Part shown: one piece after another, positions 30,283 to 34,361 of the stretch
Layout: each line of letters starts with the position of its first letter
Numbering within the stretch: position 1 is the first letter of the stretch
Assembly (NCBI GenBank): GCA_016182905.1
Contig: JACPFR010000024.1
Location: forward strand, 62,001-126,000
Direction of reading: 5' to 3'
DNA: 64,000 nucleotides
DNA from: Elusimicrobiota bacterium
GTDB taxonomy: Bacteria > Elusimicrobiota > Elusimicrobia > UBA1565 > UBA9628
Made by a program: the position numbers and the translations under genes
The notes under the pieces: generated by a model
The model's input: only the letters and a program-made list of their open reading frames with translations
Told to the model about the DNA's origin: nothing
Database searches by the model: none

Positions 30283-30573
30283 CTACGGCGCGCGCACGAC
30301 GAAGGTCACCACGCCCCAGATCTCGAGGCCGTCGTCCTCCCGCCAGCCGGGCGGCAGGCGCCGCGTCAGCATCTCGCCGCGCACGACCGCCACGATCACG
30401 CGCCCCGGAGCCGGAGGCTCGGCGCGGTCCACGATCAGGAGGTCGCCGTCCTTGACGTCGGCGTCGGGCGCCGACCCCGCGGCGCGCAGGAAGAAGGTGG
30501 CCGCCGGCCGCTTGATGAGGCGGTCGTCGAGCTTGAGGCCGACGTCGTCATAGTCCTCGCTGGCGACGAACAT
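30283..30573 (-). CDS. umuD: UmuD'-like protein lacking the autocleavage apparatus
   Basis: From ATG 30573 this 96-residue protein aligns with processed E. coli UmuD', not full UmuD. It begins 'MFVASEDYDDVGLKLDDRLI' (compare the UmuD' start around SPAADYVEQ) and has no cleavable N-terminal arm with a Cys-Gly site. The serine region reads 'RAAGSAPDADVKDGDLLIVD', without the usual GDSM. The catalytic Lys position is Arg ('RGEMLTRRL'), and the loop after it is shortened. So it should not self-cleave and may be ready to bind UmuC at once. A longer in-frame start at 30609 would run through the promoter and is rejected. Confidence 0.85.
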   Translation of the reverse strand: MFVASEDYDDVGLKLDDRLIKRPAATFFLRAAGSAPDADVKDGDLLIVDRAEPPAPGRVIVAVVRGEMLTRRLPPGWREDDGLEIWGVVTFVVRAP

Positions 30574-30580
30574 GGGGCTT

Positions 30581-30609
30581 AGTATAATCGAACAAGCGTT
30601 CGAGCGCAA
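30581..30609 (-). promoter_or_regulatory. umuDC promoter with LexA-type SOS box
   Basis: On the minus strand: TTGCGC (30604-30609), 17 bp, TATACT (30581-30586), then seven bases to the ATG. The spacer holds a perfect palindrome TCGAACGCTTGTTCGA (30588-30603). Its GAAC-N4-GTTC core is the LexA/DinR box type known from Bacillus and other non-proteobacteria. LexA there would block RNA polymerase. Confidence 0.88.
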
Positions 30610-30625: not shown

Positions 30626-30658
30626 AAGGGCCTCGCTTTCGCGAGGCCCTTTCGTCTT
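30626..30658 (-). terminator. Rho-independent terminator after the LFDG secreted protein
   Basis: AAGGGCCTCGC, loop of four bases, GCGAGGCCCTT (30626-30651), with pyrimidine-rich tails on both strands. It separates the 30673 gene from umuD. Confidence 0.8.
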
Positions 30659-31828: not shown

Positions 31829-32368
31829 ATGCGCCTGTTCATCGCCGTCGCCGCGGACGAGGAGGTCAAGGCGGCCGCCGCCGAGGCCGTCGCGCGCCTG
31901 CGCCGGGCCGGCGGGAGCTTCCGCTGGGTGGACCCGCGCGACATGCACACGACCTTGCGCTGGTTCGGCGCGGTGGACGAGAGCCGGCTGCCCGAGATCC
32001 GGGAGCTGATGACGCGCGCCGCCGCGGCGACGGCGCCGTTTTCGGTCGTGTACGGCGCCGTGGACGCGTTCGACTCCCACGAGGAGGCGCGCGTGGTCTG
32101 GATCGGCCTGGCCGAGGGCAAGGAGCCGATGGAGAGGCTCGCGGGGCTGCTCTACCGAAACGAGCCGCGGCCCTACGCGCCGCATCTCACCTTGGGGCGC
32201 AACCGGGACGACGCCGCCCCGCCCGGGTTCGTCGCCGCGCTCAAGGCGGAGCCGGTCCTGGGCCTGCGCCGCCCGGTGACGAAGATCAGCCTGTACGCGA
32301 GCAAGCCCGCGCCCTTCGGCCACGCCTACGAGATACTCTTCGAGGCCGACCTGACCGGGGCCGTTTAA
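31829..32368 (+). CDS. thpR: RNA 2',3'-cyclic phosphodiesterase (2H family)
   Basis: The 179-residue protein has the two H-x-T-x motifs of the 2H phosphoesterase superfamily: 'DMHTTLRWFG' near 47 and 'YAPHLTLGRNRD' near 114. It begins 'MRLFIAVAADEEVKAAAAEA', as is usual for LigT/ThpR. It hydrolyses RNA 2',3'-cyclic phosphates and can join tRNA half molecules in vitro. Its stop overlaps the convergent gene by four bases. Confidence 0.93.
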   Translation: MRLFIAVAADEEVKAAAAEAVARLRRAGGSFRWVDPRDMHTTLRWFGAVDESRLPEIRELMTRAAAATAPFSVVYGAVDAFDSHEEARVVWIGLAEGKEPMERLAGLLYRNEPRPYAPHLTLGRNRDDAAPPGFVAALKAEPVLGLRRPVTKISLYASKPAPFGHAYEILFEADLTGAV

Positions 32369-33585
32369 TTCGGCGGCGTGTCGGTCGCCGGCTCGACTTC
32401 GGGGATGGTCGGGATCAGGCTTTCCAGGTTGGAATTCCCGGGAGCCGTGTCCGTCGAGGACTTCAGCGGCGTGCCCGGCGCCGATCTCGGCGCCGAGCCG
32501 CTCGAGCCTGCGGGCGCGCCCGAGGAGCCGCCCCCGCCTCCGCCGCCGCCCACGGCCTGCGAGGTGGTCCCGCGCAGGAGCTCGGGGTGGTTGATGACTT
32601 CCTTCCAGCTGCACACCGGCGAGACGTTCGAGCAGGCCCCGACCCAGCCGTTGCCGTAGGCCCAGGCGAGGAACGGGTTGACGGGCTGGACCTCGACGCT
32701 GCCGTTGCCTTTGTAGGTCCAGCGCGGACCGATCCTGCCTTCGCGGTTCCTTCCCAGGACCTCGCCCTCGCACTGGACGCGCAGGGGGTCGCCCTCCGGG
32801 CGCAGGGGACAGCACCCGCGGCCGGAGAACCCGACCGCCGAGCAGTAGCTTCCCGAGCAGACGATGGGTGTCGAGTCCACGACGCGGCGGTTGCCGTTGC
32901 CGCCCATCAGGTGGAGATTGATGTGATGCAGCCCCGGGGGCTTCGGCCAGCAGCCGGTGACGCCGGGAGGCGGCGTGAGGGCGTTCGAGCCCGCGGCGGG
33001 ACCGGCCGAGGTCCCGGATCCGGCCGCGGGCGAGGGCAGCCCCGTGTAGCCGGCGGGCGAGACGTACGGCTTCTCGAAGCCTTTGGGCGCGGAGTGGCCG
33101 GCGTCGTAAGCGTTCCACTGCCACTTGGGCTTGCCGTCGGCGCCGTCGACCACCGTGACGTAGCCGCCGTTGCCGGCGAGGTCCGTGGCGCCGCCCTTGC
33201 CGTGGCTGGCGTTGTCCTGGCCCAAGGCCTGCTCGATGAGCTTCTGGTTCTCGGGCGTGGGCGGCAGGGACTGGGCCAGGCGGGCGAACTCGCTCTTGGG
33301 CGAGCCCGGCAAAGTGCTTCCGTCACCGGAGAAGCCGGAGAGGAGGTTGGCGAAGGCGCCCTTCTCGTAGCCGTCGCCTTTCTGGATGAGAGCGTCTCCC
33401 ATCTTGGCGCGGGCCGCCGCGGCGTCCGCCGCCGCGTTCGAGCCCTTGGCGTCCGCGGCGATCTTGTCGGCGTCGAGCGCGGGGCCGCAGCCGCTCCCTC
33501 CGCCGCCGATCCCGCCGCAGGCCATCGCCGCGAAGACGACGACGAGGGGCGCGGCCCGGCGCGCGTCGAGGCCGAGCATGCTCAT
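32365..33585 (-). CDS. Secreted protein with novel His/Cys-rich C-terminal domain (paralogue 1)
   Basis: ATG at 33585 gives a hydrophobic leader ('APLVVVFAAMACGG'), possibly a lipoprotein although the lipobox is not ideal. A low-complexity middle follows. A domain at about 210-345 has 'PGLHHINLHLMGGNGNRRVV', 'DSTPIVCSGSYC', 'CCPLRPEGDPLRVQCEGEVL', 'WTYKGNGSVEVQPVNPFLAW' and 'ACSNVSPVC'. The same domain is in the next gene. Many paired Cys suggest disulphides outside the cytoplasm. No known family was recognised. Confidence 0.75.
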   Translation of the reverse strand: MSMLGLDARRAAPLVVVFAAMACGGIGGGGSGCGPALDADKIAADAKGSNAAADAAAARAKMGDALIQKGDGYEKGAFANLLSGFSGDGSTLPGSPKSEFARLAQSLPPTPENQKLIEQALGQDNASHGKGGATDLAGNGGYVTVVDGADGKPKWQWNAYDAGHSAPKGFEKPYVSPAGYTGLPSPAAGSGTSAGPAAGSNALTPPPGVTGCWPKPPGLHHINLHLMGGNGNRRVVDSTPIVCSGSYCSAVGFSGRGCCPLRPEGDPLRVQCEGEVLGRNREGRIGPRWTYKGNGSVEVQPVNPFLAWAYGNGWVGACSNVSPVCSWKEVINHPELLRGTTSQAVGGGGGGGGSSGAPAGSSGSAPRSAPGTPLKSSTDTAPGNSNLESLIPTIPEVEPATDTPPN

Positions 33586-33587
33586 GG

Positions 33588-34361
33588 CTAGGGCTTGTAG
33601 TTGGGCACCTGATAGGACGTCTCGCCGCACGCCTTGGACACGTTCGAGCAGGCGCGGACGACGCCCTTGCCGTACGCGAAGGCCAGGAAGGGGTTATCCG
33701 GGTGCCGTTCGACCCTGCCGTCGCCGCCGGCGTAGGACCAATGCGGCCCCGCGATGCCGTCGGTGGGGTCCGTTCCGAGCAGGATCAGCTCGCAGGCCAC
33801 GCGCAGGGGATGGCCCTCGGGCTTGACCGGGCAGCAGCGGCGGTTGTCGTCGCCCATCGTCTCCTGGCAGTAGCGCTCGTGCCGCGTGCCGGCGTCGGTC
33901 GAGCAGACGATGGGGGTGGAGTCGACCCGGAAGCGGTTCCCGTTGCCGCCCATCAAGTGGACGTTGATGTGGTGAAGGGGAGGCATGTCGCAGCCCTTGT
34001 CGTCCTTCGGCGGCTTGCCCAGGGGCGGGGTCGGCGAGGAGGACTGGTCGTCCTCTTCCTCGTCGCCGGCGCCTGGACGGCGCGGCAGCGCTCCGCCGCC
34101 TCCTCCCCCGCCTCCTTCGTCGCGGCGCGCGGCCGCCGGGCGGGGATGATTCTTGTAGCCCCGCGCGGCTTTCTTGACCGGGATCGGTTCCGCCGCGGGC
34201 GCGGCCGCCTCCGTCGTGGTGGTGGTCGTCGTCGGGGCTTGGTCGGCCTCCTGCGCGGCGGCCTCCTCGGTGTTCTCGTCTTCTTCGGCTGGAGCCCGGC
34301 TCGGGAAGGCGGCGAAAGCGGCCAGGACGGCGCACACGGCCAGGAAACGGGGGATATTCAT
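33588..34361 (-). CDS. Secreted protein with novel His/Cys-rich C-terminal domain (paralogue 2)
   Basis: The 257-residue protein has a signal peptide (MNIPRFLAVCAVLAAFAAFP) and an acidic Thr/Pro/Gly-rich region including a run of glycines. The same C-terminal domain follows as in the neighbour: 'PPLHHINVHLMGGNGNRFRV', 'DSTPIVCSTDAG', 'CCPVKPEGHPLRVACELILL', 'WSYAGGDGRVERHPDNPFLA' and 'ACSNVSKAC'. The two genes are two bases apart and form an operon made by tandem duplication. The function is unknown. Confidence 0.75.
   Translation of the reverse strand: MNIPRFLAVCAVLAAFAAFPSRAPAEEDENTEEAAAQEADQAPTTTTTTTEAAAPAAEPIPVKKAARGYKNHPRPAAARRDEGGGGGGGGALPRRPGAGDEEEDDQSSSPTPPLGKPPKDDKGCDMPPLHHINVHLMGGNGNRFRVDSTPIVCSTDAGTRHERYCQETMGDDNRRCCPVKPEGHPLRVACELILLGTDPTDGIAGPHWSYAGGDGRVERHPDNPFLAFAYGKGVVRACSNVSKACGETSYQVPNYKP

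Follow-up and report, generated by a model that had tools for sequence, protein, structure and literature searches.

An Elusimicrobiota umuD gene encodes a predicted pre-cut UmuD' without the catalytic dyad, under predicted LexA control

The window, the whole 64,000-nt stretch of Elusimicrobiota DNA analysed here, carries on its minus strand a short umuD' gene followed by umuC, preceded by a compact promoter (Table 1). The gene order rnr-umuC-umuD'-dtd-thpR is common to several genomes, and the nearest named relatives by UmuC are Elusimicrobia/Elusimicrobiota MAGs, with identities of up to 92%. The umuD' product exceeded the cut-off of the Pfam family Peptidase_S24 and matched the solved UmuD' structure 1umu (E 4.9e-12); its match to the NCBIfam UmuD model NF007621 (E 3.5e-19, 68.9 bits) lay under the curated cut-off of 110 bits. 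An AlphaFold2 model had a mean pLDDT of 87, with low confidence in the N-terminal 9 residues, and its closest PDB structures were those of UmuD' (1umu, 1ay9 and 8gmt). The predicted fold is that of UmuD', the core sequence agrees with it, and the gene shares its operon with a umuC bearing the UmuD'-binding tail. Elsewhere in the window (32365-34361, minus strand), two adjacent ORFs have the common motif HHIN-HLMGGNGNR--VDSTPIVC together with low-complexity stretches.

Table 1 Features of the umuD'-umuC locus (window coordinates)
Feature	Position	Strand	Remarks
Intrinsic terminator	30626..30651	minus	insulates the operon from the upstream gene; ~50 bp upstream
-35 element TTGCGC	30604..30609	minus	weak, 3/6 match; missed by a consensus scan
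LexA box TCGAACGCTTGTTCGA	30588..30603	minus	occupies the whole -35/-10 spacer
-10 element TATACT	30581..30586	minus	same in 11 genomes
umuD', 96 aa	30573..30283	minus	ATG at 30573, stop TAG 30285-30283; ORF plus family and structure searches
umuC, 417 aa	30280..29027	minus	IMS, IMS_C and full DUF4113 tail; begins two bases past the umuD' stop codon

In an alignment with E. coli UmuD, the umuD' ATG adjoins the position equivalent to the C24-G25 cleavage point, where self-cleavage leaves the N-terminus of E. coli UmuD', and translation starts where it does in HumD-type pre-cut UmuD' proteins. The N-terminal arm is short (Met-Phe-Val-Ala-...-Glu-Asp-Tyr), and its residue 2 is Phe in all compared Elusimicrobiota, corresponding to F26 beside the E. 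coli cleavage point. Published models place the UmuD' arm in the UmuC cleft (PMC11791011); given the match to F26, this cleft-entering arm is kept in shortened form. The first-pass annotation had proposed that the gene encodes an already cut UmuD', and the promoter, which fixes the ATG at the cleavage point, bears this out. The range given there nevertheless reached 30609, because the TTG at that position was taken as the start codon. A 108-aa product from this TTG was rejected, since the triplet belongs to the -35 hexamer and the 12 extra codons are promoter.

The same alignment showed that GSAP replaces the GDSM motif, with the nucleophile S60 changed to Ala and the base K97 to Arg, as had been noted from the sequence at first reading; in addition, ~17 residues following K97 are absent. 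No Cys-Gly or Ala-Gly cleavage site was found in the protein when aligned to E. coli UmuD. With neither the Ser-Lys dyad nor the N-terminal cleavage site by which UmuD processes itself, autocleavage is impossible by the known mechanism, in agreement with the earlier proposal that the autocleavage delay is lost.

This form is characteristic of the lineage, whose members are uncultured. Among 341 Elusimicrobiota genomes (species representatives, some of them incomplete), a complete UmuC tail occurred in 13, 12 of them in the genus of the window and the other in a different genus of its family; matches elsewhere covered the first half of the model only. All 13 UmuC-positive genomes encode the pre-cut, dyad-less UmuD with the same start. 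Position 97 is Arg in 12 of them, Ser in one and Lys in none; at position 60, 11 have Ala, G009 has Cys and G004 has Ser. A full-length catalytic UmuD in related genomes had been named beforehand as an observation that would speak against a pre-cut protein; a profile search across all 341 genomes yielded none, and the matches read were LexA-like proteins of ~200 aa. The window's own genome gave two UmuD-profile matches only, the umuD' gene and a LexA. Among near relatives, dN/dS was 0.06-0.12 for umuD' against 0.19-0.25 for umuC at similar distances, and 0.3-0.6 for umuD' at larger distances, indicating that umuD' is under purifying selection. UmuD' and UmuC are absent from several of the 19 genomes in the genus, some of them incomplete. 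In one congener that is 98% complete (G013, locus L344), the interval from rnr to its neighbour is cleanly devoid of umuD'C, so the system is dispensable.

The promoter is built around the LexA box. Its weak -35 element has the form TTGACA in a relative (G026), and the -10 element lies seven bases ahead of the ATG in the window and 5-7 nt ahead of it across the 11 genomes compared. Transcription normally starts ~7 nt past the -10 element, and the umuD' mRNA is therefore probably leaderless. The box, TCGAAC-N4-GTTCGA, had been described as a perfect palindrome between -35 and -10; the position stands and the arms are perfect, but the N4 core is not palindromic. Across the 11 genomes the arms are nearly invariant and the N4 variable. 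In the 3.98-Mb genome, the perfect 12-base palindrome occurs four times, against 0.1-0.4 expected by chance, upstream of recA, lexA, radA and umuD'. The lexA promoter is laid out alike, with the box inside the spacer and the -10 element a few bases ahead of the ATG, and the genome's LexA has a DNA-binding domain, KGDSM and TVKRL motifs and a PAG cleavage site. The motif GAAC-N4-GTTC is the LexA box type of B. subtilis and M. tuberculosis (PMC3323433). With the box shared by lexA and recA of its own genome, LexA/SOS control of umuD'-umuC through a Firmicutes-type box, as first suggested, is well supported by sequence. Perfect boxes thereby define a small SOS regulon of lexA (L127), recA (L125), umuD' and also radA (L128). 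In the same genome, a RecQ-like helicase ORF (L139) is immediately preceded by a box with one mismatch, TCGAACTATTGTACGA.

A decaying pseudogene that has lost its 5' end, active site and function could account for the missing N-terminus, dyad and post-K97 segment, and frameshifts are present in both umuD and umuC of one relative, G012. In that genome, however, rnr is likewise split between frames, which indicates indel errors of the assembly. The strong purifying selection seen in dN/dS contradicts decay, as do the intact umuC and a start, promoter and box conserved in 11 genomes of two genera, making loss of function extremely unlikely. It is just as improbable that the true product starts further upstream with a cleavable arm, even though UmuD of E. 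coli extends 24 residues further and the window offers an in-frame TTG 12 codons ahead of the ATG. Besides the assignment of that TTG to the -35 element, the terminator lies close upstream, and the longer start that the first-pass annotation asked to be looked for was not encountered in the start-site survey of relatives: two genomes (G018 and G006) have an in-frame stop one codon ahead of the ATG, and most of the remaining genomes offer no other start codon in frame. An upstream extension would also lack an Ala/Cys-Gly site, and self-cleavage would be impossible anyway with the dyad absent.

Capture of a phage HumD relative beside umuC is suggested by the fact that HumD-type proteins also begin at the cleavage point and that several have an altered GDSM motif. 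Scans of viral contigs, however, gave only relatives with 33-49% identity, whose matches began at residue 5, and the protein scored 48.7 of the 120 bits set for the HumD family NF051876. HumD keeps K97 and the segment missing here, its arm reads GFPSPA instead of FVA, and the umuD' gene is chromosomal, syntenic within the genus and adjacent to umuC; such a capture is very unlikely. A similarly small probability attaches to a dyad-less protein that only stabilises or restrains UmuC without lesion bypass, like uncleavable E. coli UmuD. UmuD-S60A, which carries the arm, strongly reduces UV mutagenesis in E. coli (review PMC3901139), but the arm it retains is absent here, and the UmuC tail in the window is complete.

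The reading we prefer, and consider highly likely, is that the gene product is a functional accessory subunit of Pol V, obligately 'primed'. It builds on the start, dyad loss, LexA box, conservation, purifying selection and predicted fold seen in the sequence, and from these we infer Pol V activity, the leaderless start, dimer and complex formation, and the kinetics. DNA damage would give rise to RecA filaments, the cleavable LexA would cut itself and the umuD'-umuC promoter would open. Translation of the probably leaderless transcript would yield the short-armed UmuD' directly. This UmuD' would pair with UmuC without RecA-stimulated self-cleavage, so that UmuD'2C most likely assembles once LexA has been cleaved. 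RecA would still be required to activate UmuC. Judged from its position, the DUF4113 region should hold the RecA-binding motif as well as the UmuD'-binding tail, and E. coli Pol V is activated by RecA (PMC6511836, PMC11791011). As UmuC retains the whole of this region along with IMS and IMS_C, RecA activation is probably kept in this lineage. The LexA box noted at first reading is thus in place, but to call LexA repression the only visible control was an overstatement in view of this putative RecA-binding region.

UmuD autocleavage is taught as a safety delay, by which mutagenic synthesis is held back until accurate repair has had time. A stable lineage without autocleavage, the switch having been removed both at the substrate arm and at the active site, makes the purpose of this delay testable. 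In E. coli, mutagenesis is held up by UmuDC in its uncut form, and the signals for Lon and ClpX lie in the UmuD arm (PMC5342242). By analogy, the uncut UmuD2C stage and the signal-bearing arm being absent, this delay and the Lon and ClpX routes would be missing in Elusimicrobiota.

To judge by a survey of limited coverage, several further bacterial groups have lost UmuD self-cleavage as well. Among UmuDs read beside umuC, 39 of 128 lacked the dyad, 11 of these being from Elusimicrobiota; the phyla were partly picked because dyad-less cases had already been seen in them, so no frequency is to be read from this count. On UmuC trees (quick trees, support by SH-aLRT only), the dyad state changed at least 12-13 times, with 8-9 changes forced by supported branches. 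Stable dyad-less clades were found in Elusimicrobiota, in Saccharibacteria and, twice, in Bacteroidota, and further dyad-less UmuDs adjoin umuC in a Dependentiae and others. The dyad-less UmuDs of Saccharibacteria, Bacteroidota, Dependentiae and the others resemble the window protein in having lost the Ser-Lys dyad while being paired with UmuC, but they retain some 7-28 residues of N-terminal arm and may therefore be permanently uncut rather than pre-cut. In one Bacteroidota clade (L302, L287, L301, L298, L283 and L293), the UmuD beside umuC carries Ala for S60, Arg for K97 and a conserved TGFGAAADDY arm. In Babeliales (L046 / L250), the best start of UmuD lies at the cleavage point and both Ser and Lys are kept, giving a protein that is pre-cut yet catalytically intact.

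The segment following K97 had its normal length in all dyad-bearing UmuDs of the sample. It was short only in dyad-less ones, namely those of Elusimicrobiota, of Saccharibacteria and other members of that phylum, and of one Bacteroidota. This restriction of the loss to dyad-less UmuDs, seen across roughly three or four lineages, points to a role of the segment in cleavage rather than in polymerase function. On balance, we favour the view that UmuD self-cleavage, commonly presented as the post-translational switch of Pol V, is a dispensable trait that umuDC operons of cellular genomes have shed many times, leading to two stable end states, permanently pre-cut in Elusimicrobiota and permanently uncut in Saccharibacteria and some Bacteroidota, with the post-K97 segment as a cleavage-only part.

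A pre-cut UmuD' is a known concept, with phage HumD as its clear precedent: a 2020 paper singles out P1 as the exception whose UmuD is encoded in already activated form (PMC7092418). P1 HumD and its relatives (N15 gp26, phiKO2 gp23 and HK140 gp28) start at the cleavage point, and LexA sites are annotated for the genes of P1 and phiKO2. In the N15, phiKO2 and HK140 proteins, the serine position aligns with Thr. The lysine and the segment after it are retained throughout this phage group, whose arm begins with Met/Val-GFPSPA exactly at the cut. Unlike the Elusimicrobiota gene, the phage genes had no adjoining umuC in the stretches read. The open-licence literature searched yielded no chromosomal UmuC whose only UmuD partner is a pre-cut, dyad-less UmuD', and it mentioned neither umuD for Elusimicrobiota nor UmuD for Saccharibacteria. 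The YqjX/YolD partners of Gram-positive YqjW are small proteins that likewise pair with a Y-family polymerase and have no described self-cleavage (PMC6511836, PMC12926913), but their sequence family is unrelated to UmuD. With the E. coli UmuD/UmuD' of DNA polymerase V, the Elusimicrobiota system shares the fold, the umuD-umuC order, LexA control and the DUF4113 tail of UmuC. It differs in that UmuD' is encoded directly, the Ser-Lys dyad and the post-K97 segment are missing, the LexA box is of the Firmicutes type and the operon is probably leaderless; the protein thus resembles a natural minimal UmuD'.
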